This document shows, piece after piece, positions 788 through 15,962 of a stretch of 64,000 bases of DNA (position 1 is its first letter; each line of letters opens with the position of its first letter). The position numbers and the translations under genes are program-made. This DNA comes from Clostridia bacterium (GTDB taxonomy: Bacteria; Bacillota; Clostridia; Christensenellales; CAG-314). Under the pieces are notes generated by a model. The model did not search any database. It worked only from the letters and a program-made list of their open reading frames with translations, and was not told the origin of the DNA. The stretch is from contig JAQVMT010000003.1 of the NCBI GenBank assembly GCA_028703495.1, forward strand, positions 62,001 to 126,000, read 5' to 3'.

Positions 788-2089
788 ATGGCAAGAGATA
801 TTCAAATTGTAAAAACCACAAAGGACTATAATGTGGGGTTTAAAAATGTTTGTGCTTATGCGAGAGTATCCAGTGGCAAGGAAGCAATGCTTCATTCTCT
901 TTCTGCACAGGTAAGCTATTATCAAAACCTTATTAAAAAGAATAGGGAATGGAAATTTTGCGGTGTTTATGCTGATGAAGCCTTAACGGGAACGAAAGAA
1001 ACTCGTGAGAAGTTTCAACTAATGCTCCAAGAATGCAAAAACGGAAATATCGACCTAATAATAACAAAATCGATTTCTCGTTTTGCCAGGAACACTGTAA
1101 CGCTACTTGAAACGGTGCGAGAACTTAAAGATTTAGGTGTAGACATCTATTTCGAGGAACAAAACATTAACACAATGTCAACCGATGGGGAATTGATGCT
1201 GACTATACTCGCATCGTATGCGCAAGAGGAGAGTTTATCGGCAAGCGAGAATATGAAATGGAGGATAAAAAAATTATTTGAGCAGGGATTGATTCCTTCG
1301 GGACGATTGATTGGATATAAATATAAAGAGGGCGCTTTTGAGCTTATTCCGCACGAAGCAGAGATTGTAAAAAGGATTTATAAGATGTATCTTGGCGGTA
1401 TGGGGAAAACTAAAATAGCCAAACAGCTAAATAAAGAAGGGGTATTGACAAGAAACGGACGAACTTGGAGTCCTATGACCTTGCATTGGGTTTTAACAAA
1501 TTATACTTACACGGGAAATCTGCTGTTGCAACGAACATATACGGAAAACCATTTAACAAAAAAGACAAAGCAGAACAAAGGTGAATACCCGATGTACCAT
1601 GTCGAAAATACGCACGAAGCTATCGTTAGCGTGTATGATTTTGAGGCTGTGCAGAAGGAGATGGCAAAACGAGCAGAATTGGTTAAACAAACAGATTCCT
1701 CGCCCAGGAAATGTTATCCATTTACTGGAAAATTACGGTGTGCCGTCTGCGGTAATTATTGTATTCGCAGAACCACGGTTACAAGAAAGATGTGGATTTG
1801 TCACAATTACACTGTCTATGGTAAAGAAAAATGTGCATCAAAACAAATACCTGAGGAAACGCTCGAAAAAGTAACGATTGAGGTTATAGGCAGCTTGGAT
1901 AATTTGAGCGAAATTGATTATATTGATGTTGATAACGGCAATAAGCTGACATATGTGTTTCTGGACGGAAGAAAAGAAGAACGGATATGGAAAGACCGTT
2001 CACGCTCCGAATCCTGGACGGAAGAAAAAAGGCTTGCTTTCGGAGAAATGAGAAAAAGGAGGAATGCAGAATGCCGCAAGTTACAATAA
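788..2089 (+). CDS. Large serine recombinase 1
   Basis: Start ATG 788 follows AAAAAGGAGG. The 433-residue product has the resolvase catalytic domain at about 20-165, with the nucleophile context YARVS (Ser28) and the arginine motif SRFARN. A Recombinase domain follows at about 180-290 (PSGRLIGYKYK...IYKMYLGGMGKTKIAKQLN), then a zinc ribbon near 310-360 (CAVCGNYCIR...C). Such enzymes cut and exchange DNA through a covalent phosphoserine and integrate or excise mobile elements. Its end overlaps the next recombinase by 19 bases, so the two are translationally coupled and probably work together. All catalytic signatures are intact. It is shorter at the C-terminus than recombinase 2 and lacks that protein's long coiled coil. 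Confidence 0.9.
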   Translation: MARDIQIVKTTKDYNVGFKNVCAYARVSSGKEAMLHSLSAQVSYYQNLIKKNREWKFCGVYADEALTGTKETREKFQLMLQECKNGNIDLIITKSISRFARNTVTLLETVRELKDLGVDIYFEEQNINTMSTDGELMLTILASYAQEESLSASENMKWRIKKLFEQGLIPSGRLIGYKYKEGAFELIPHEAEIVKRIYKMYLGGMGKTKIAKQLNKEGVLTRNGRTWSPMTLHWVLTNYTYTGNLLLQRTYTENHLTKKTKQNKGEYPMYHVENTHEAIVSVYDFEAVQKEMAKRAELVKQTDSSPRKCYPFTGKLRCAVCGNYCIRRTTVTRKMWICHNYTVYGKEKCASKQIPEETLEKVTIEVIGSLDNLSEIDYIDVDNGNKLTYVFLDGRKEERIWKDRSRSESWTEEKRLAFGEMRKRRNAECRKLQ

Positions 2090-3657
2090 TACCAGCAACA
2101 AGGGATTTGCACACGGGCATAGCGAAGAACGGATTCTATAAGAAAAAGGTGGCTGGTTATGCCAGGGTATCAACCAATAACGAAGAGCAGTTGACTTCCT
2201 ATGAAGCTCAGGTTGATTATTATACGAAATATATTCAAAGCCGAGCCGATTGGCAATTCGTTAAGGTATATACAGACGAAGGGATATCTGCAACCAATAC
2301 AAAACACCGTGATGGCTTCAACGAAATGATAAGCGCCGCTCTTGAAGGGAAAATTGATTTGATTGTCACAAAGTCGGTAAGCCGTTTTGCAAGAAACACT
2401 GTCGATAGTTTAACAACTGTGCGGAAACTGAAAGATAAGGGGGTTGAGGTTTATTTTGAAAAGGAAAACATCTACACTCTTGACAGCAAGGGCGAATTGC
2501 TGATTACAATTATGAGTTCGCTTGCACAGGAAGAAAGCCGCAGTATTTCCGAAAATGTAACATGGGGTAAAAGAAAAGCTTTTGCAGACGGTAAAGTATA
2601 CCTTCCGTATAAAAACTTCCTTGGGTACAGAAAAGGCGAAGACGGATTGCCTGAAATAGTACCGGAGGAAGCGGAAGTTATACGGCTGATTTACAGATTG
2701 TTTTTCGAGGGGAAAACCACTTATTTGATAGCGGAAGAATTAACTTCCCGTGGTGTACCAACACCTACGAAGAGGCAGTCCGAGTGGCAGAGCAGTACAG
2801 TGGAGAGTATTCTTTCCAATGAAAAATATAAAGGTTCGGCTCTTCTGCAAAAGAAATTCACAACAAGTTTTTTGGAAAAGAAAATGAAGGTGAACGAGGG
2901 TGAAGTTCCTCAATACTACATAGAAAACAGTCACCCTGCAATCATAACACCCGGCGAATACGAGATGGCAAGGGCAGAGTTGCAACGCAGAAAAGGGATA
3001 GGGCATAAGTATAGCGGAAAAAACATTTTTGCTTCCAAAATCGTATGCGGTGATTGCGGAAGCTATTATGGTCCGAAAGCGTGGCATTCAAATAGTATAT
3101 ATTATAAAATTATCTATCGCTGCAATTCCAAATATAAAACCGATAAACACAAATGTGGGACTCCCACTTTGACGGAAGATACGATTAAAGACGCATTTAT
3201 CGAAGCAATAAATAAATTGCTTATTGGCAAAACACAATTAATTGATGATTGTCGAATTATGCAGACAATGCTGTCGGACACATCGGAACAAGAGATAAAA
3301 TTGGGCGAGAAGAATGATGAACTTGACATTGTTCGAGGATTGCTTGCAAAATGCATTGAAAGCAATTCAAAGGATGAACAGGACCAAGAAGCATTTTGGC
3401 AGAAATACAATTGCTTGGAGGAGCGCTATAACACTATAAAAGTAAAAATCGAAAAGTTGTATGACGAAATTAAAATTAGAAGACAAAAGGCAGAAAACAT
3501 TGGAGCTTTTATGTTTGAGCTAAACGAGCGTGATGGAATAATTGATACTTTTGACGAGCGGCTTTGGTTTGTTACAGTCGACCGAGTGGTTGTAAACAAG
3601 GGAAAAGGACTGGTATTTGAATTCAAAAATGGTATAAAAATAGAAGTCGCACTATGA
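2071..3657 (+). CDS. Large serine recombinase 2
   Basis: The best start is ATG 2071, preceded by AAAAAGGAGG; the frame is open further upstream but without a ribosome site. The roughly 528-residue protein has the resolvase domain (YARVST, catalytic Ser34; SRFARN), the Recombinase domain (about 180-290), a zinc ribbon (CGDCGSYYG...C...C), a coiled-coil segment (about 390-470) and a C-terminal tail. This is the full architecture of phage and ICE-type large serine integrases. It forms an overlapping pair with recombinase 1. The next gene on the right is convergent, so this ends the + strand set. Confidence 0.92.
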   Translation: MPQVTIIPATRDLHTGIAKNGFYKKKVAGYARVSTNNEEQLTSYEAQVDYYTKYIQSRADWQFVKVYTDEGISATNTKHRDGFNEMISAALEGKIDLIVTKSVSRFARNTVDSLTTVRKLKDKGVEVYFEKENIYTLDSKGELLITIMSSLAQEESRSISENVTWGKRKAFADGKVYLPYKNFLGYRKGEDGLPEIVPEEAEVIRLIYRLFFEGKTTYLIAEELTSRGVPTPTKRQSEWQSSTVESILSNEKYKGSALLQKKFTTSFLEKKMKVNEGEVPQYYIENSHPAIITPGEYEMARAELQRRKGIGHKYSGKNIFASKIVCGDCGSYYGPKAWHSNSIYYKIIYRCNSKYKTDKHKCGTPTLTEDTIKDAFIEAINKLLIGKTQLIDDCRIMQTMLSDTSEQEIKLGEKNDELDIVRGLLAKCIESNSKDEQDQEAFWQKYNCLEERYNTIKVKIEKLYDEIKIRRQKAENIGAFMFELNERDGIIDTFDERLWFVTVDRVVVNKGKGLVFEFKNGIKIEVAL

Positions 3658-3707: not shown

Positions 3708-3731
3708 AGCCTCGCTTACCACGGGGCTTTA
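3708..3731. terminator. Possible hairpin between convergent genes
   Basis: AGCCTCG (3708-3714) can pair with CGGGGCT (3722-3728), followed by a short T run on the + strand. It sits between the convergent recombinase 2 and ParB-like genes. The T tract is only three bases, so this is a weak call. Confidence 0.35.
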
Positions 3732-4616
3732 TTCAATTTCCGAGTCAATATTCTCACCGATATTTAAAGAATCGTCACTTACGTCATCGTCTTCGTCATC
3801 AAGAGCAGAGAATAATGAATTGTCTTTTGCGTATAGCTTGTTGATTGTAAGTCGACTTGCTAAATTTTTCTTTTTACCGTTGTATTCCAAAATCATTGCT
3901 TCGGCAAAACCCATATAACCAGAACGGCGGTCTTTAGCATTGCGAGTCAGTTGTTTTATTGATATTGCACCGAGTTTTTCTTTAAAAATGTCATCATTGA
4001 GTAGGTCTTTATATACAACGATTATTTTCGCTATTGCTTTCATCATGTTGGCAGAGAATGAATTTACATCACCTTCCCACGTCCCGACAGTAAGCCGTAA
4101 AACGTGGCTGAGAACATGGTAACCATACCTATTATAGATAGATTCGATTGTGGATACAGCACAAATAATACAAGGTCCGGTTGTTGAGCCTATGGAAAGA
4201 CCATATGATTCCACCAAATCCCGTATGACAAGTTGGTCATCGTTTCCTGCCTCTAAATTAGCCATAAAAATTTCATACGGCTGAAGCGGTTTTACATATT
4301 TCATTTGGTTTGCAAAAATGTCTGCTTCGTGTTCATAGCAGAGGTCGTCATAAATCATACACCAGACGGGGGTGTCTCTTGAACCTGAAACGAGAGCCAC
4401 AATTTCAATAGTATGCTGTCCGTTAAATACATAGTTTATGCCGTTGCGTCTGCTTACTTTTACCGGATTTATTTGATATAAGTCAAAGTGTGTAGCCGCT
4501 CGTGTTATATGCGATTGCGACAAATTCCGTTGATACTCTTGGTTAGATACAAGATTTTTTATGGGTATCTGTTCAAAATGTACATTTGGGACAAATTGAT
4601 TGATTGCGTTTTCCAT
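3729..4616 (-). CDS. ParB-N-like protein (DUF6551-like)
   Basis: The product is 295 residues. ATG 4614-4616 overlaps the stop of the upstream gene (TAATG) and is preceded by GGAGGAGG. The N-terminal third resembles the ParB/sulfiredoxin fold (IPIKNLVSNQEYQRNL, then a ...NGQHT motif where ParB has DGxHR). The rest is helical and ends in an acidic tail rich in D and E. Such proteins are found on mobile elements and plasmids beside ParB-like proteins. A role in partition, transcription or element maintenance is inferred. It is the last gene of the - strand operon. Confidence 0.6.
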   Translation of the reverse strand: MENAINQFVPNVHFEQIPIKNLVSNQEYQRNLSQSHITRAATHFDLYQINPVKVSRRNGINYVFNGQHTIEIVALVSGSRDTPVWCMIYDDLCYEHEADIFANQMKYVKPLQPYEIFMANLEAGNDDQLVIRDLVESYGLSIGSTTGPCIICAVSTIESIYNRYGYHVLSHVLRLTVGTWEGDVNSFSANMMKAIAKIIVVYKDLLNDDIFKEKLGAISIKQLTRNAKDRRSGYMGFAEAMILEYNGKKKNLASRLTINKLYAKDNSLFSALDDEDDDVSDDSLNIGENIDSEIE

Positions 4617-5575
4617 TAATAATCCTCCTCCGATAGGATACTGTTTAGTTCAGAGATGTTATTTTGAAGGTCATTCAATACTTGTTCGAGTTTTGTTTTT
4701 GCCTTAATAGAAGGCTCTGAAGTATTAAGACTATTAACGGTCCGTTTTATAGACGAAATCCAAGACGGAATGGTTAGAGTTAGCTCAGTTAACGGAGCAT
4801 CGGGGTCAAATTTTGGCATATCCTTTACAGAAGGACGCATCATAGCTTCACTTTGTTGCTTTTCGACCGCATTCAGTATTACATTTCGGCTGTTGCAATA
4901 CTGAACAAAAGGTTTTTTTGTTATTTCCATTCGGTTATTAACTTTTTTTAACTCAGCAGTGCTGAGTTTGGCAAGTTCTGTTATATTCTTATGCGATATC
5001 TTATATCTCCCGGAAAGAATTTTAGTAACCATTTCAGGCAGTTTTTGTCCGATTGTTTCCAATGCCCTGGTGTAAATAGCATATTTTTGAACCGTTGCGT
5101 GTGTAACATTATTTTCATCTGCTATTTTATGCGCCGTTTTTGTTTTGGTTGGGACTTCTATTTCTTCGTCAGGAATATAGTCTTCTCCTTCTTTTGAGTA
5201 GAATTGATTAATGCCAAATGGATTTTTGTTTTGGTTGGCGGTTTTCTCGGATTCGTATTGCATACCAATCAGAAATTTTCTTGTTTCTTCGGTAATATTT
5301 CTCCGACCAAGTTGATTTTTGCATATCCAGGCTATTACAGCGGCGCGACAATCAAAAGACAACTCCCGAACCTGAAATGGTATTTGATGCCTATTGCAGA
5401 TTTCATAACGATTATGACCGTCTATGATATAGCCGTTCCAAGTAATAATAGGGTCGCGACAGCCATCGGCAAGTAAGTTTTCTTCCAATTGCAAGTATTC
5501 CTTACGGCGAAGTGGTCTAATAAGATTTTTAAACTCATTATCGATTTTTAGCAGTATTTTAGGCATATTATCCAT
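4616..5575 (-). CDS. ParB-like nuclease-domain protein
   Basis: 319 residues, ATG 5573-5575 with GGAGC upstream. Residues 20-110 form a ParB-N-type domain with the diagnostic IIDGHNRYEICN motif, and a helix-turn-helix-like segment follows (about 145-165, HKIADENNVTHATVQKY). The C-terminus is predicted helical or coiled (TKLEQVLNDLQNNISEL). ParB-family proteins use CTP and bind DNA; on mobile elements they serve partition or gene regulation. It lies in an operon with a recombinase and a second ParB-like gene, so a role in element maintenance or recombination control is likely. Confidence 0.75.
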   Translation of the reverse strand: MDNMPKILLKIDNEFKNLIRPLRRKEYLQLEENLLADGCRDPIITWNGYIIDGHNRYEICNRHQIPFQVRELSFDCRAAVIAWICKNQLGRRNITEETRKFLIGMQYESEKTANQNKNPFGINQFYSKEGEDYIPDEEIEVPTKTKTAHKIADENNVTHATVQKYAIYTRALETIGQKLPEMVTKILSGRYKISHKNITELAKLSTAELKKVNNRMEITKKPFVQYCNSRNVILNAVEKQQSEAMMRPSVKDMPKFDPDAPLTELTLTIPSWISSIKRTVNSLNTSEPSIKAKTKLEQVLNDLQNNISELNSILSEEDY

Positions 5576-5585
5576 AGTGAAGCTC

Positions 5586-5963
5586 CTATAATTCTATTAT
5601 CTTTATTGATTTAAGGGAGAAAACGGCTATTTTTTCTGTAGGGATAACCTTACCCGTGAGTTTATATGTGCAGTTATGGTCGATACAGTCGGTGATTTCG
5701 CATAGTTTTGTAATAAACGAACCGCTGTAAATTTCATAAGAGTCGTCAGGAGAAATGTTTTTTATATCTACCCGATGAGCTTGCAAAAGCGGAGTATCTG
5801 TTTCGACAACCCTTAATGCAAGCATTTGAGTTTTAGGGTTAACAAGGAGTTGAATATACTTTGGATCTCCTAAGTAGTGCAGTGTAGATTTATAAATGCG
5901 TATACGCATTTTCTTTAAGTCGATTGAGATATTTGTTACGATGTTATCTTCCGGTTTTTTCAT
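5586..5963 (-). CDS. Small protein with the recombinase-associated domain (copy 3)
   Basis: 125 residues; ATG 5961-5963 overlaps the TGA of the preceding gene (ATGA) and follows AGGAGATG. I know no named family. By eye its core (YIQLLVNPKTQMLALR...TYKLTGKVI...) matches the region of the upstream 257-residue protein (FAQILVNRSHKILALL...YRYKLLGKLI) and the C-terminal domain of recombinase 3 (YIELLINPLRRMFAIR...CKYRIIGTLF). It is therefore a stand-alone, shortened copy of one domain. The function is unknown; context suggests a partner of the recombinase. Confidence 0.6.
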   Translation of the reverse strand: MKKPEDNIVTNISIDLKKMRIRIYKSTLHYLGDPKYIQLLVNPKTQMLALRVVETDTPLLQAHRVDIKNISPDDSYEIYSGSFITKLCEITDCIDHNCTYKLTGKVIPTEKIAVFSLKSIKIIEL

Positions 5964-6733
5964 TGTTCATCTCCTGTACACGCAACAGCCGACAATTTCG
6001 ATTCCGGCTCTGTCGCAGTGTCGTGATTGTTCTCCGTTTGAGTTATGTCTTTTATGGAATATATCGCATACCCATCGAAAATATTGATTTGCATTGACTG
6101 CTTATGTTCGTTAAAGGGCAGTCCAAATTGATTCTGCCACTCTGCTGGAAATACAGGAGTTCTTGAAATCTTCGGTTTTTCGCCATCCACAAATGATTTT
6201 TGATATACTTCGGTGGCATTCAAGTCAAAAGCTATCATGTATTTGCCTTTTGAATGAATCAATTTACCGAGGAGCTTATACCTGTATTTGGGATTCCAGT
6301 CCATCAAAGAAAAAATCTTTGCGAAAAAAAGTTTGCAAGTGATAGGACGTGGTTTCTTTTTACCATTTGCTGTATTGCACCACATAAATGAATCCCGTGC
6401 GTTTTCTTCACAAGGGAGGAGAGCAAGTATTTTGTGACTTCGATTAACCAGGATCTGAGCGAAGTCAGATTTTTGAAATTTTGACAAACACGCTGCATTG
6501 ACATAAAACTTGCAGTCATTGAATGTTACGGACGGCTCTCGTAAATGAGCAAAGAATTCTTTTCTTACGACTTGAAAGTCATTAATATCAAATTCATCGT
6601 TCATATCCAGCATTTCATCGCCTTTAGATATAGTTGGAGCCATACTGTCCACTTCAATATTCAGTGTTGGCTCGAATTGTTGATTTGCAGAATCGTCTGC
6701 GATTTTTATAGCCGTCTTGTTTTCAAATTCCAT
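5960..6733 (-). CDS. Stand-alone recombinase-associated domain protein (copy 2)
   Basis: 257 residues; ATG 6731-6733 overlaps the stop of the recombinase gene (TAATG) with AAGGAG upstream. Residues about 50-190 match the C-terminal domain of recombinase 3 closely (V-R-K/S-E-FF, S-V-T-F / A-I-S-F, SLMDWNP, YR/YK-LLGKLI / RIIGTLF, then F-D-x-N). The C-terminal PAEWQNQFGLPFNEH also parallels PEEWTTSFGKEYYLHE in the recombinase. No catalytic motif is visible. The gene probably arose by duplication of the recombinase tail. Function unknown. Confidence 0.65.
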   Translation of the reverse strand: MEFENKTAIKIADDSANQQFEPTLNIEVDSMAPTISKGDEMLDMNDEFDINDFQVVRKEFFAHLREPSVTFNDCKFYVNAACLSKFQKSDFAQILVNRSHKILALLPCEENARDSFMWCNTANGKKKPRPITCKLFFAKIFSLMDWNPKYRYKLLGKLIHSKGKYMIAFDLNATEVYQKSFVDGEKPKISRTPVFPAEWQNQFGLPFNEHKQSMQINIFDGYAIYSIKDITQTENNHDTATEPESKLSAVACTGDEQ

Positions 6734-8628
6734 TATTCATTTACTCCTTGTGTAATACCTTTTAATTCGGTTTGTATGTAATCTTTTAGTTTGTCAAAAC
6801 TTGTAATTTGTAGTTTTTTATCCGTTTCGAAGAATTGACCTTCTACTCGCAATCTCCAGTCGGACTCGCTTTGCGTACTTAATGTCATAAGCGTTTGTTC
6901 ATGGAGGTAGTATTCTTTTCCAAAGCTCGTTGTCCATTCTTCCGGGATTGCGCGTATTCGTTTGCCAGAGGGGGTGAGGGGTTGAAGAGTTGCGCCACCA
7001 CCTGAGTTATCTTGTTTCGGTATAACATACGATTTGAAAAACGCTTCAGAGTTCTGGCTGTCAAAAAGGTATACAATCTCACTTTTGTTTTCAAAAAGTG
7101 TTCCGATAATTCGGTACTTACAGTCTGGGTTCCAATCCATTAGGGAGTAGATAATATCTATGAAAGCTGCCGCTGATATTTCCTTTGGTTGATATTCGCC
7201 GTTTTCCAACTTGGAGCAATAGATGCCTTGTCGATTGTCTTTGCTTGTGGAACGTATGGCAAACATCCTTCGTAAAGGGTTTATCAGTAATTCAATATAA
7301 TTTTTCTCCTTGAATTTTTTTACGCAAACACTGCTTAATTTTATCTTCTTATTGCTGAATGAGATTGCTGGGTTACGTTTTGAATCAAAGAACTCTGAGC
7401 GTGTGATTTCAAAGCCACGCATATCAAAATCGCCTTCGTTAACCTCAATTTGAATATCTTTTGTTTCGTCTGATTGTTGTGTTTGACCGTCATTAACGAT
7501 AGAGCATACACTTTGCGCTGCTTGATAATAATCGGGTTCTTTGAAGCCTGCCCAACGTGGGTTGACAGTAACAAAACCTTTTAGAATCCCGCTGTCAATT
7601 ACTTTTAATGATGGTAAATATGATTTATTGCCGTATTTGGCATTATCGAGCATTCTTTGCACTGCAATAAAATCATCTCGTGAGATTATTGCTTCGTGAT
7701 GATTTTTGTAATGGCTTTGTGGTCTGTCGCCATTGTTTCTGCGTGAAAGGTGAGTGTGATAGTTTGGAGTAAAGGTTTTTCGGGTTACGACATCACCGCA
7801 GTGCCGCTCATTTCGGAGAATCTGTATAATACCTCCTGGTGTCCATTTTATGTTTCCAAGATAGGAACGTCGGCCAAGAGAGATGAGTGCATCTGCTATC
7901 TGCTGAGTGGAATAACCATAGAGATACATATAGAAGGCAAGTTTCACTGTCGGGGCTTCATCTTGGTTAATAATTAAATTTCCGTCGGTATCGTGAGAAT
8001 ATCCTAACAATTTAGGAGTGAGCGGGATACCGTTGTCTAAACGCATACGAAGCGAAGTTTCCATACTACGGCTTCGAGTGTGTGATTCTTCTTCTGCCAT
8101 TGTTGCTTGAAAAGAAAGGGCCATTTGCGAATCATCATTCAGCGAAAAAATACACTCAGATTCGAAAAAAACTCCGACGGGTGGCTTTAACTCTGCTAAA
8201 TCACGAACCATGCCTATGCAAATTAATACGTTACGGGCAAAACGGGATACGCTTTTGGTAATTATTAAATCTATTTTGCTTGCTTTACAGTCAGCTATCA
8301 TTTGATTAAATTCATTACGGTGGGCGAGAGATGTACCACTTATGCCTTCGTCCGCATATATTTTGACAAGAGTCCAGTTTGGATGGCGGACTACAAAGTC
8401 TTCATAATACTTTTTTTGTAATTCAAAAGAAGTGGTTTGCCTGACATCATCGGTAGACACACGCACATATATGGCAACCCTTTGATTTACGTCGTCATCA
8501 TAATAGTCCGCTTGTTTTTTTGAAGCTGGAGTATACTCGTAGTTTTCAGGATCGATTTCCACCCGCATTCTTCTACGAGTTTTTTCTTTTTCTTTTTGTT
8601 TAATTTCTCGTTTTTCGGTATCTATCAT
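6733..8628 (-). CDS. Serine recombinase 3 with an extra C-terminal domain replacing the zinc ribbon
   Basis: 631 residues, start ATG 8626-8628 with GAGGC upstream. After a lysine-rich N-tail come a resolvase domain (VAIYVRVST, catalytic Ser58; SRFARN present) and a Recombinase domain (about 205-310, LLGYSHDTDGN...GYSTQQIADAL). The zinc ribbon and coiled coil of typical large serine integrases are missing. In their place are a linker (GFVTVNPRWAGFKEPDY) and the roughly 170-residue domain that also occurs alone in the next two genes. I recall this architecture in other Clostridial recombinases, so it is a recurrent, poorly characterised class. The gene lies 15 bases after a degenerate paralogue, which suggests a heteromeric pair. 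Confidence 0.85.
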   Translation of the reverse strand: MIDTEKREIKQKEKEKTRRRMRVEIDPENYEYTPASKKQADYYDDDVNQRVAIYVRVSTDDVRQTTSFELQKKYYEDFVVRHPNWTLVKIYADEGISGTSLAHRNEFNQMIADCKASKIDLIITKSVSRFARNVLICIGMVRDLAELKPPVGVFFESECIFSLNDDSQMALSFQATMAEEESHTRSRSMETSLRMRLDNGIPLTPKLLGYSHDTDGNLIINQDEAPTVKLAFYMYLYGYSTQQIADALISLGRRSYLGNIKWTPGGIIQILRNERHCGDVVTRKTFTPNYHTHLSRRNNGDRPQSHYKNHHEAIISRDDFIAVQRMLDNAKYGNKSYLPSLKVIDSGILKGFVTVNPRWAGFKEPDYYQAAQSVCSIVNDGQTQQSDETKDIQIEVNEGDFDMRGFEITRSEFFDSKRNPAISFSNKKIKLSSVCVKKFKEKNYIELLINPLRRMFAIRSTSKDNRQGIYCSKLENGEYQPKEISAAAFIDIIYSLMDWNPDCKYRIIGTLFENKSEIVYLFDSQNSEAFFKSYVIPKQDNSGGGATLQPLTPSGKRIRAIPEEWTTSFGKEYYLHEQTLMTLSTQSESDWRLRVEGQFFETDKKLQITSFDKLKDYIQTELKGITQGVNE

Positions 8629-8643
8629 CGCATAAGCCTCTTG

Positions 8644-9228
8644 TTAATCGTTGTCATCGGGTAGGAGCTTCCAGTCTGGAGTCGGTAAGAAGTATTCGTC
8701 TTTATTGTCTTTTTTGTAGTATGATGCAAGTGTATATATATCTTCGGAAATAAAGTATATACCCACTGGTTTTTTAAGGCTTGCAAGAAGACGTGCGCAT
8801 AGAGTTATCTCATGTATTTTTTTAGAAACATTGGATATTTTTTGAGTAATAATTAAGTCAACTTTTCCTTCGTAGCAATCGTTTAATAAGCGACTCCATT
8901 CCGGTGCTGTTTCCATATTTGGTGCGGTGGCTCCTTCATCAATGTAAAAGTCAAACAAATTCCAATTTAAACACTGTCCGATAGTAACAGTAAATTGCTT
9001 TTTATGATATTCAAGATAATTCTCATATTTTGTTTGATTGAAATACCGTATATATATTGCAACATTTTGGTGCTTAGTGGTATTTGGTCGTTCGTGTCTG
9101 ATTGTTTGTAACCAAGTTTTATGGTTTTCAACTTTATTTGAATGAACAGAGTCTTCAGAAAAAATTAGGGAGAATTGTGGTACCTCAGTAATCTCGTTTA
9201 ATTTTTCAAATACTTCAATTTCGTCCAT
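8644..9228 (-). CDS. Catalytically degenerate resolvase-domain protein
   Basis: The start is ATG 9226-9228 with TTGGAGG upstream, giving about 194 residues. The fold signature of a serine resolvase is recognisable (NVAIYIR..., then YIDEGATAPN, KVDLIITQKIS, KKPVGIYFISEDIYTL) and parallels recombinase 3 (KIYADEGISGT, KIDLIITKSVS, KPPVGVFFESECIFSL). However, the nucleophilic serine position (RVS) reads R-Y-F, and the SRFARN arginine motif reads SNVSKK. The protein ends after the catalytic-like domain, with no Recombinase or zinc domain. It therefore cannot cut DNA by the known mechanism and may be a regulatory or structural partner. Confidence 0.7.
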   Translation of the reverse strand: MDEIEVFEKLNEITEVPQFSLIFSEDSVHSNKVENHKTWLQTIRHERPNTTKHQNVAIYIRYFNQTKYENYLEYHKKQFTVTIGQCLNWNLFDFYIDEGATAPNMETAPEWSRLLNDCYEGKVDLIITQKISNVSKKIHEITLCARLLASLKKPVGIYFISEDIYTLASYYKKDNKDEYFLPTPDWKLLPDDND

Positions 9229-9335
9229 ATAGACCTCCAATTTATAACAGAGACCATTATACATTGATATTTTATAAAAAAGAATAAACCAGCAGTCACA
9301 ATGTTGACCACTGGTTTATGAAATGCAGAAAAAAT

Positions 9336-9373: not shown

Positions 9374-9724
9374 TTAGTCTTCATTTTTATGAATTGTGTC
9401 TTTTACCTCTCGAACGATTTTTAGAATAGAATCTATTTCTGTCGGCGTGCAGTCACTTAAAATAGCGTAAAACTCTTTTTGATATAATTGGTTTACTTCC
9501 GGGACATCTGGGCGCAGTATGGAATCGGATGATACTTTTAATACTTCAATGATTTTGACGAAAGTATCAAGTTGCATCATTTTCTTTCCGTTTTCTATAT
9601 CGCTTATATGTGGTAAAGAGATATCTGCCTCAAAAGATAAATCGGCTTGGCTCATTTTTTTAGTAGTACGAGCTGCACGGATACGCTGCCCGACTTGCTT
9701 TATGTCGATATTATACTTGTCCAT
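9374..9724 (-). CDS. XRE-family transcriptional regulator (- strand)
   Basis: ATG 9722-9724 is preceded by AAGGAGGGC, giving 116 residues. The N-terminal half is a Cro/C1-type helix-turn-helix (VGQRIRAARTTKKMSQADLS...HISDIENGKKM). The C-terminal half (about 75-116) is a helical tail similar in size to that of the divergent XRE protein. It heads the recombinase/ParB operon and faces the other regulator across a 140-base promoter region, which suggests a repressor pair controlling element genes. Confidence 0.85.
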   Translation of the reverse strand: MDKYNIDIKQVGQRIRAARTTKKMSQADLSFEADISLPHISDIENGKKMMQLDTFVKIIEVLKVSSDSILRPDVPEVNQLYQKEFYAILSDCTPTEIDSILKIVREVKDTIHKNED

Positions 9725-9864
9725 ATTGCCCTCCTTTACACCATAGACTATATATTTTAATAATTTTATCACCCATAGCATAAAAAGAAAATCGTCCACC
9801 GTTTAACATATAGTCCACAGACTAATATTATGGTAAAATTATTTGTCTATAGGAGGATACACAA
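9725..9864. promoter_or_regulatory. Divergent promoter/operator region between two XRE genes
   Basis: This AT-rich spacer contains an inverted repeat TAGTC-CACA-GACTA (9811-9824) and a related AGACTATAT (9745-9753). The - strand reading of 9810-9817 is TGGACTAT, a motif that recurs in the promoter of the SLOG gene near 14056-14109. These are plausible operator sites for one or both XRE regulators. Exact -35 and -10 boxes could not be fixed with confidence. Confidence 0.5.
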
Positions 9865-10218
9865 ATGACGATTGATTATTATGTTATAGGACAGAGGATT
9901 AAAGAGCTTCGCAAAAACAAGCATATGTCTCAAGCCAAGCTATCGGAGATAATTGATAAATCAACTTCCTACATCAGCTATTTGGAGAGCGGGATTAAGT
10001 TTATGAGCGTAGAAACGCTTACAAATATTGCCAACGCTCTCAATGTGACCACAGATATGATTCTGGGTGAATATTTAATAAATCATATGGGGGTAAGCGT
10101 CAAAACCTTTGAGAGTGTTTTGCAGGATTGTACCCAGTACGAGAGTAGGGTAATAATAGATAATGCAAAAACGCTAAAGGCGGCAATGAGAGAAAATCGC
10201 AGTCTCAGCCATAAATAG
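9865..10218 (+). CDS. XRE-family transcriptional regulator (+ strand)
   Basis: 117 residues from ATG 9865, with TATAGGAGG upstream. It has a clear Cro/C1 helix-turn-helix (IGQRIKELRKNKHMSQAKLS...YISYLESGIKFMS) and a helical C-terminal tail. It is similar in length and layout to the divergent - strand regulator, so the two are probably paralogues. It precedes the phosphoesterase/RNA-ligase operon but is separated from it by a hairpin at 10255-10290 and about 200 bases. Confidence 0.85.
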   Translation: MTIDYYVIGQRIKELRKNKHMSQAKLSEIIDKSTSYISYLESGIKFMSVETLTNIANALNVTTDMILGEYLINHMGVSVKTFESVLQDCTQYESRVIIDNAKTLKAAMRENRSLSHK

Positions 10219-10254
10219 TCTTAGCAAGTTTACTTTTTTTTACACATAAAAGCA

Positions 10255-10290
10255 ATAAACTACTGGTTAAAAATATAACCGGTAGTTTAT
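10255..10290 (+). terminator. Long hairpin after the + strand XRE gene
   Basis: ATAAACTACTGGTT (10255-10268) pairs with AACCGGTAGTTTAT (10277-10290) around a short AT loop. There is no clear T run after it. The arm resembles the TAAACCAG arm of the hairpin at 9285-9318. It probably ends the regulator transcript or stabilises its 3' end. Confidence 0.5.
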
Positions 10291-10376
10291 GCTACGCAAA
10301 AATACTGCAATCAATTATGTTTTTTATAAAAGCTGTTACATTTTTCAAATCAGAGAAAAATGGTCGAGATTTATGA

Positions 10377-15080: not shown

Positions 15081-15962
15081 ATGAAAAAGAAATTAATTTC
15101 AATTGTATGTGCAATTATGGCATTAACAATGGGCATTGTAGGATTGACGGCTTGTAACGGAGCTAAGTTTGATGATAGTAAGAACATAAGTGTAGTCGCT
15201 CGTGAGGACGGTAGCGGAACAAAGTCTGCGTTTATGGAAATAATCGGGCTTAAAGGCAAAAGCGACGTATCGGGCGTAATTATCGGTACAGGTACGGCGG
15301 GTATCTTGGCAGAAGTAAAAAGCAACCCTCTTGCCATTGCATACGAAAGTTTGGGATACGTTACAAGCGACGTAAAAATGCTTACTGTTGACGGAGTTGC
15401 CGCAACCATTGAAAATATTAAAAACGGAAGTTATCAAATTGCACGTCCGTTAAACATAGTGTACAAAGCCGCAACCATTCAAAGCGACTTAAACGGTGCG
15501 TTTTACGAGTTTTTGAATAGTTCAAACGCTCAAACGATAATAAGCGATAACGGGTACGTTTCCACGAAAGACGAGGCAACTGCATATACGGTAAAGTCGG
15601 GTATTTCAGGCGAAATATCGGTATCGGGCAGTACGTCGTTGCAACCTTTAATGGTTATTCTTGCGGCAGAATTTGAAAGAATTCAGGCAAACGTTACCGT
15701 AACGGTAGCCGGTGGCGGAAGTGGAACGGGTTATAAAAATGCAAACGACGGAGTAAGTGATTTCGGTATGATTTCAGAAACGTTCAACAGTACAAAAGCC
15801 GAAAACTGCACCTCGTGTGAAGTGGCAAAAGACGGCATAGCAATTATCGTAAACAAGGCTAACATCTATGACAATATCAGTTTGGCAGATTTAAAGAATA
15901 TCTATAACTGTGAAGAATCATCGAACACTAAAATTACTACTTGGGCAGACTTGTCCAAATAA
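15081..15962 (+). CDS. pstS: Phosphate-binding lipoprotein PstS with swapped half-domains
   Basis: 293 residues, RBS AAAGGAG. A signal peptide ends in the lipobox LTAC, so the protein is anchored outside the membrane and delivers phosphate to PstCA. Unusually, the segment that is normally C-terminal (ISVVAREDGSGTKSAF, about 36-51) comes first. The normally N-terminal half (ISVSGSTSLQPLM near 180, GGGSGTGYKNA, DGIAIIVNKAN) comes second and the protein ends at TTWADLSK. The two phosphate-contacting loops (SGSTS and REDGSGT) are both present. I recall a similar order in other Clostridial PstS proteins, so it is probably a functional circular permutation and not a rearranged fragment. First gene of pstSCAB-phoU-phoPR. 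Confidence 0.88.
   Translation: MKKKLISIVCAIMALTMGIVGLTACNGAKFDDSKNISVVAREDGSGTKSAFMEIIGLKGKSDVSGVIIGTGTAGILAEVKSNPLAIAYESLGYVTSDVKMLTVDGVAATIENIKNGSYQIARPLNIVYKAATIQSDLNGAFYEFLNSSNAQTIISDNGYVSTKDEATAYTVKSGISGEISVSGSTSLQPLMVILAAEFERIQANVTVTVAGGGSGTGYKNANDGVSDFGMISETFNSTKAENCTSCEVAKDGIAIIVNKANIYDNISLADLKNIYNCEESSNTKITTWADLSK

Follow-up and report, generated by a model that had tools for sequence, protein, structure and literature searches.

Why would a prophage encode, directly behind a serine recombinase, two smaller proteins that resemble the tail of that same recombinase? The question is raised by an operon in a 64,000-nucleotide stretch of DNA (hereafter the window) from a Clostridia bacterium of the GTDB lineage Bacteria; Bacillota; Clostridia; Christensenellales; CAG-314 (NCBI GenBank assembly GCA_028703495.1, contig JAQVMT010000003.1, positions 62,001 to 126,000 of the forward strand). 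The operon is on the minus strand of the window, in the gene order gp0 (206 aa), Rec3 (631 aa), B (257 aa), C (125 aa), ParB1 (319 aa) and ParB2 (295 aa), and two genes called IntA and IntB are convergent with it on the plus strand. The name ParB1, and that of domain X used below, are labels of this analysis. Domain X replaces the zinc ribbon in Rec3 and is copied in the next two genes, an arrangement that is carried by a widespread family of viruses of gut bacteria and suggests a recombination machine of several parts that has not been described before.

One domain is present in Rec3, B and C

The initial annotation had placed three open reading frames (ORFs) here and claimed that a single unnamed domain recurs in them. 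The frames are present, all on the minus strand: Rec3 at 6733..8628, B at 5960..6733 and C at 5586..5963. BLASTP aligned the Rec3 tail with B at E 2e-32 (26% over 222 columns) and gave a weak but real match between Rec3 and C (E 5e-6) and a poor one between B and C (E 0.034). The profiles of orthologues decide the matter in favour of one homologous domain, domain X, with E values of 4e-34 for Rec3 versus B and 7e-13 for both Rec3 versus C and B versus C. Profiles from larger alignments gave 6e-39, 3e-15 and about 1e-13, respectively, in hhalign, and the three X profiles compared with the N-terminal domain of Rec3, gp0, ParB1, ParB2, IntA and IntB yielded E 0.05 or worse. The first copy, the Rec3 region homologous to B in hhalign, spans residues 394-595 (6844..7449), and the part common to C spans residues 420-534 (about 7027-7371). 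B is the second, stand-alone copy, and C is a third, minimal one.

The same relationship emerges from searches of the genome itself. A profile built from C orthologues only matches B (1.1e-7) and the Rec3 tail (2.9e-10), and the B profile matches the Rec3 tail (2.9e-35) and C (7.5e-6). Among 391 sampled genomes of the class, the C profile has matches in 10 and the B profile in 8; in its own genome and in those numbered G124, G200 and G279, the C profile hits three adjacent places, in ORFs of the sizes of Rec3, B and C. Of the motif blocks proposed initially, LLVN/LLINP and Y-R/K-x-x-G are found in all three proteins, whereas R-x-E-FF and SLMDWNP can be recognised clearly in Rec3 and B only. 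Neither Pfam nor NCBIfam contains a family that B or C matches significantly.

Rec3 has an intact active site and no zinc ribbon

Rec3 contains a resolvase catalytic domain (PF00239, E 4e-22; residues 51-192, about 8053-8478) and a recombinase DNA-binding domain (PF07508, E 1.5e-20; residues 223-328, about 7645-7962), followed by domain X. Its best family matches are the phage integrase family phrog_95 and CcrB, and all of the 96 homologues retain the active-site serine and arginine residues. IntA and IntB each have a catalytic domain, a recombinase domain and a zinc ribbon; Rec3 has the first two only. It has no match to PF13408, which both integrases have, and 95 of the 96 homologues have no CxxC motif past residue 330. 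The proposal that domain X replaces the zinc-ribbon half of the recombinase is therefore borne out.

The gene preceding Rec3, gp0 (8644..9264, minus strand; probable start near 9228, from the alignment), codes for a homologue of the first domain of Rec3 (E 2e-19). All 51 gp0 proteins have F, Y or L where the catalytic serine would be, and none keeps the first arginine of SRFxR; the corresponding residues are kept in 96 of 96 Rec3 proteins. From these replacements, gp0 is a conserved, free-standing copy of the catalytic domain of serine recombinases and presumably without catalytic activity. Among the 89 loci for which 800 nt or more of upstream sequence is available, 49 have gp0 ahead of Rec3.

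Domain X probably has an MraZ/AbrB-like fold

We modelled B and C with AlphaFold2 without templates; the Rec3 tail is tied to B by sequence. The model of C has a mean predicted local distance difference test score (pLDDT) of 90.5 and consists of two beta-alpha-beta-beta units. That of B has a mean pLDDT of 75.1, with a core (about residues 68-180) mostly above 90. The folds of B and C are not unrelated: both contain the same beta-alpha-beta-beta repeats, and MraZ ranks first for both models. In the VIA ranking for C, MraZ has Z 5.1, a root mean square deviation (rmsd) of 3.5 and 90 aligned residues and is accompanied by three more MraZ rows, the next unrelated row being at 2.8; for B, the values are Z 4.5, rmsd 3.2 and 85 aligned residues, with the next unrelated row at 3.1. 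With moderate confidence, based on these models, domain X is likely to have an MraZ/AbrB-like fold of the DNA-binding type.

Other comparisons speak against this assignment. The Z values for MraZ are low, all below 8, and a Foldseek search of the PDB gave no match for B or C at E 0.001. The match to the MraZ profile in hhalign is non-significant for C (E 0.009, probability 4.5%), with E 0.41 for B and 0.05 for the Rec3 tail, and no MraZ match was found in a Pfam scan of 67 C proteins at E 0.1. The top Foldseek rows, sliding clamps, were discarded, with TM-scores of about 0.1-0.2. Searches of BFVD returned mostly unnamed phage proteins (best E 8e-4), and a sequence search of the PDB gave no match for B and one chance-level row for C.

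The block is conserved in phages and prophages

Relatives of B were found in 20 phage records, 30 IMG/VR contigs and 168 places in GTDB genomes, 80 of which were kept. The resulting survey comprises 113 non-redundant loci, after removal of L001, L002 and L009 and of the duplicates L015, L016, L027 and L029. Rec3 is present in 108 of these loci, with B next to it in 108 of 108, and C, ParB1 and ParB2 all follow in 96 of the 108; in the remaining 12, the contig ends, genes are broken or inserted, or the block is a variant. Small stand-alone X proteins (124-130 aa) are also encoded without Rec3 nearby (L182, L184 and L185), and hence X forms a wider family.

The phage records with B relatives that were viewed are labelled Candidatus (Ca.) Heliusvirales, and Rec3-B-C with two ParB-like genes is a conserved block in records so labelled. 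Record titles include Oscillospiraceae, Lachnospiraceae, Selenomonadales, Melainabacteria and a deltaproteobacterium. Upstream of the window, the same contig carries genes for a phage polymerase, primase/helicase, exonuclease, terminase, portal, major head and tail proteins. Given the shared module and the terminase, portal, head and tail genes, the prophage of the window is predicted to be of the Ca. Heliusvirales type and siphovirus-like. A solute-binding protein gene at 15081 looks like the start of a host phosphate-uptake cluster.

ParB2 (3729..4616, minus strand) matches DUF6551 (PF20188, E 5.6e-32) and the ParB-like family phrog_1033 (E 1.1e-13), and it is the least divergent gene of the operon. 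ParB1 (4616..5575, minus strand) has ParB-like motifs by eye; it matches the ParB-like phrog_2159 at E 0.076 only, and the library family that it matches best, phrog_21315 (E 6e-10), consists of unnamed phage proteins of unassigned function. DUF6551 phage proteins bound CTP or ATP in the experiments presented in sections of PMC12704722.

A few loci depart from this layout. In L187 (4520-11073), the order is IntA-IntB-Rec3-B-C, followed by a gene for a Fic-domain protein. L187 and L183 have a protein of 808-822 aa after C, which is the Fic-domain protein in L187, and no ParB genes. In the deltaproteobacterium Smac51 (L099), a Rec3-B-ParB1-ParB2 block is found amid host-like genes, with no match to IntA/IntB or to a tyrosine integrase within about 150 kb; this block may be a relic or a minimal element.

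A putative multi-subunit recombinase

The explanation that we tentatively favour, at somewhat less than an even chance, is that Rec3-B-C, together with gp0, ParB1 and ParB2, forms a multi-subunit serine-recombinase module under the control of the prophage switch, with B and C providing domain X in trans. Rec3 would be the catalytic subunit, keeping the catalytic domain and the reader of the inner half-site. Domain X, probably MraZ/AbrB-like, DNA-binding and self-associating, would stand in for the zinc-ribbon half, which normally reads the outer half-site and gates synapsis. As stand-alone X subunits, B and C might co-assemble with the Rec3 tail, bind neighbouring DNA, or both. The presence of two extra X proteins in the operon is most simply explained by shared oligomers or shared DNA sites, which would make the activity of Rec3 dependent on B and C, so that it would be active only once the full complex is assembled. 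In the part of the family that has it, gp0 may cap or brake the complex, and the ParB-like proteins may add nucleoside triphosphate (NTP) control. The module would most likely act on phage DNA when the switch changes, for excision or for resolution or rearrangement of that DNA; excision, multimer resolution and a regulatory role are all conceivable.

A more elaborate form of this explanation is a split, gated serine recombinase in which Rec3 provides catalysis, domain X acts in cis and through two trans subunits, gp0 is a poison subunit and the ParB-like proteins are nucleotide switches that time synapsis. We regard this full scheme as rather unlikely, and to our knowledge there is no NTP-gated multi-subunit serine recombination among known systems.

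Several observations weigh against a multi-subunit module. The adjacency of Rec3 and B is partly selected for, because most loci were fetched with B. L039 and L187 lack the ParB genes, although L039 has a C relative; no C was found in L099, and 40 of the 89 loci with sufficient upstream sequence have no gp0. The palindrome located upstream of the operon (described below) is probably a regulator's operator and at most a candidate recombination site. Finally, a link of the module to IntA/IntB is conceivable: integrase genes lie convergently downstream of 48 of the 96 full blocks, while another 23 blocks are followed by at least 5 kb without any and the sequence is too short in 25.

The module is coupled less tightly to the integrases than its genes are to each other

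The last point is the basis of the strongest alternative, in which IntA/IntB are assisted in excision by factors expressed on induction, namely B and C or the module in its entirety. IntA (788..2089) and IntB (1987..3657), both on the plus strand of the window, are large serine recombinases with zinc ribbons, convergent neighbours that we do not count among the module genes. Their ORFs overlap by ~100 nt (1987-2089) in different frames, and the real start of IntB is probably further downstream. In addition to the convergent arrangement just downstream in half of the full blocks, the early-operon position of the module would suit such a role, as would the location of IntA-IntB directly upstream of Rec3 in L187, which has no ParB genes.

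Directionality factors are expected to match their integrase. Pairwise distances over 43 loci correlate with r 0.73-0.85 among the module genes and with r 0.49-0.60 between these genes and the nearest integrase, which in a few loci (e.g. L102) sits across the block. Moreover, in 27 of 903 locus pairs Rec3 differs by <35% and the integrase by >50%, while the reverse is found in one pair. Integrases have thus been swapped beneath similar modules, and this, with the weaker co-divergence, argues against the idea in the initial annotation that B and C are directionality factors, as far as the integrases are concerned. It is possible that they are directionality factors for Rec3's own reaction, or competitors for a common partner. 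In addition, L054, L076 and L114 have tyrosine integrases rather than IntA/IntB near the block, which may belong to other or neighbouring elements, and an active third recombinase would be superfluous for an excision factor. We consider the excision-factor explanation doubtful, if still a serious contender. A self-contained machine is favoured over it because the block co-diverges, the Rec3 active site is intact and the integrases are swapped.

The position of the integrase genes also varies. In Anaerocolumna, the block adjoins the host comEC gene, while some 54 kb separate it from IntA/IntB, which are close to the opposite presumed prophage end; in L056, they are located beyond the immunity genes, on their other side. 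In L028, L042, L057, L061, L065, L069, L087 and others, three convergent recombinase genes (about 550, 300 and 515 aa) replace the IntA/IntB pair. A gene that appears HipA-like by eye lies between ParB2 and the integrases in L058, L061, L065, L069-L071, L073 and L074. A search for attachment sites in Anaerocolumna (L100/L127) gave no convincing core common to the two presumed prophage ends, and a repeat search in the first 14.8 kb of the window yielded nothing convincing.

A palindrome with a fixed -10 box precedes the operon

In 79 loci, an XRE-type gene precedes the operon at a distance of up to 1.5 kb. In the common layout, which is also that of the window, one such gene has the direction of the operon at a distance of 60-170 nt and another is divergent, near 600 nt; in the window, these are HTH1 (9374..9799, minus strand) and HTH2 (9865..10218, plus strand). 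Between the XRE genes and the operon there is a 40-bp imperfect palindrome (site 1; 9282..9321, minus strand), the arms of which are of the type TAAACC...GTCA and vary together. The pattern of site 1 had no match in 100 shuffles of the window. For the family-wide comparison, 13 of 74 picks, mostly terminator hairpins or unclear cases, were dropped, which left 61 loci with 53 distinct sites; three of the dropped picks (L014, L019 and L044) do hold the palindrome by eye.

The best match to a -10 box lies 21 nt (14 sites) or 22 nt (39 sites) past the arm, and 51 of the 53 distinct sites match at least 5 of 6 bases at one of these two offsets. The mean match is 4.4 at offset 22 and 1.5-2.8 at all other offsets tested; ties were assigned to 22, and the per-offset means and counts are independent of this rule. 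In the window, the box is TATAAT, at about 9256-9261. The promoter has no clear -35 element. We read the palindrome as the operator of the operon promoter, and in this reading the prophage switch would control the module as one of its outputs. A scan flagged site 1 as a terminator-like element of the minus strand, a function made less likely by the conserved -10 box that follows it and by a separate terminator immediately ahead of it; a role as an RNA hairpin is conceivable.

A second copy of the palindrome, above the shuffled maximum, lies beyond the XRE genes in 11 of 25 gp0-clade loci. In the window, this site 2 (10253..10292, no strand assigned) is 971 nt away from site 1, beyond both XRE genes; at a distance of about 0.97 kb, the two copies flank the XRE pair in that part of the family. 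No fixed -10 spacing was found on the outward side of the second copy. We considered the paired palindromes as recombination sites, between which the immunity genes would be deleted or inverted as in a switch, but their central dinucleotides differ by eye (window, L045 and L061). For this reason, and since the -10 spacing of site 1 is fixed, which fits an operator, that interpretation was set aside. A simple alternative would be a regulator with two neighbouring subsites per palindrome (ACC-N3-GGT in each arm, by eye).

A palindrome used as a recombination site is also part of another explanation, in which Rec3 resolves phage-genome multimers in the manner of res/resolvase systems, B, C and the ParB-like proteins build a topologically selective synapse and the palindrome is the site of action. 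The site is directly upstream of the recombinase operon and even-centred in most loci, the module is independent of the integrase type, and scans of three other phages or prophages revealed, besides site 1, no further copy that exceeded the shuffled level. However, the fixed -10 spacing better fits an operator, and both the second copy in the gp0-clade loci and the differing central dinucleotides speak against multimer resolution, which we find unlikely.

The sequence distance between sites correlates with that of ParB2 at 0.57, with those of B, C and Rec3 at 0.48-0.49 and with those of the XRE proteins at 0.36-0.38, values that come from differing numbers of loci, fewer for the XRE proteins, and whose differences were not formally tested. 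This somewhat better tracking and the MraZ-like fold predicted with moderate confidence would suit a transcription-factor role of domain X, with B and C regulating at the palindromes and Rec3 kept mainly as a DNA-binding partner, but the catalytic residues of Rec3 are invariant in 96 of 96 proteins and binding at the site is most simply ascribed to the XRE repressors. Of the explanations considered, this is the least likely.

Comparison with known systems

We found no account of a Rec3-B-C module in the literature covered, which excluded most subscription journals and preprints; Ca. Heliusvirales is only mentioned in passing there, and Heliusviridae more often. The main text of the founding Heliusviridae paper (PMC9226167) contains neither 'recombinase' nor 'integrase'; Heliusviridae as described in sections of that paper take in streptococcal phages. 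ParB2 shares DUF6551 with ParB-CTPase fold proteins, and the main text of the paper on these (PMC12704722) does not contain the word 'recombinase' or mention a link of this kind. The two beta-alpha-beta-beta repeats of domain X resemble those of the swapped-hairpin factors MraZ/AbrB, with MraZ as the top match over 85-90 residues; on the other hand, Z is low, Pfam detects no MraZ among the C proteins and the profile match is non-significant.

Two streptococcal prophages, Phi1207.3 and Phi m46.1 (AY657002 and FM864213), have the same kind of IntA/IntB tandem downstream of their lysis genes, according to passages of PMC4260502. Phi1207.3 is described there as having three serine recombinases, the tandem pair being proposed to serve excision and integration. 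In contrast with the prophage of the window, no Rec3-B-C block is present among the annotated genes viewed in AY657002 and FM864213, and protein searches gave no relative of B or C among streptococcal records.

Serine integrases serve genome engineering, and a central question about them is how the zinc ribbon and coiled coil control direction. In the present case, natural selection has maintained, in prophages from a wide range of bacterial groups, a relative with intact catalytic residues that has a different domain in place of this half, with additional copies encoded as separate subunits, and a naturally and presumably dead catalytic subunit accompanies it. With this small and concrete set of genes, it can be tested directly how serine recombination is controlled in a modular way and how the prophage switch of abundant gut phages works.

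The closest known relatives of Rec3 in architecture are the large serine recombinases of the A118, phiC31 and Bxb1 type and CcrA/CcrB, with which it shares the resolvase catalytic domain and PF07508. In these enzymes, as set out in sections of PMC3783163, the recombinase and zinc-ribbon domains jointly read the att half-site, and the contacts between subunits that determine direction are made through a coiled coil, which is inserted in the zinc ribbon. Unlike them, Rec3 has domain X instead of the zinc ribbon, and its operon encodes two stand-alone X proteins and a putatively dead copy of the catalytic domain.

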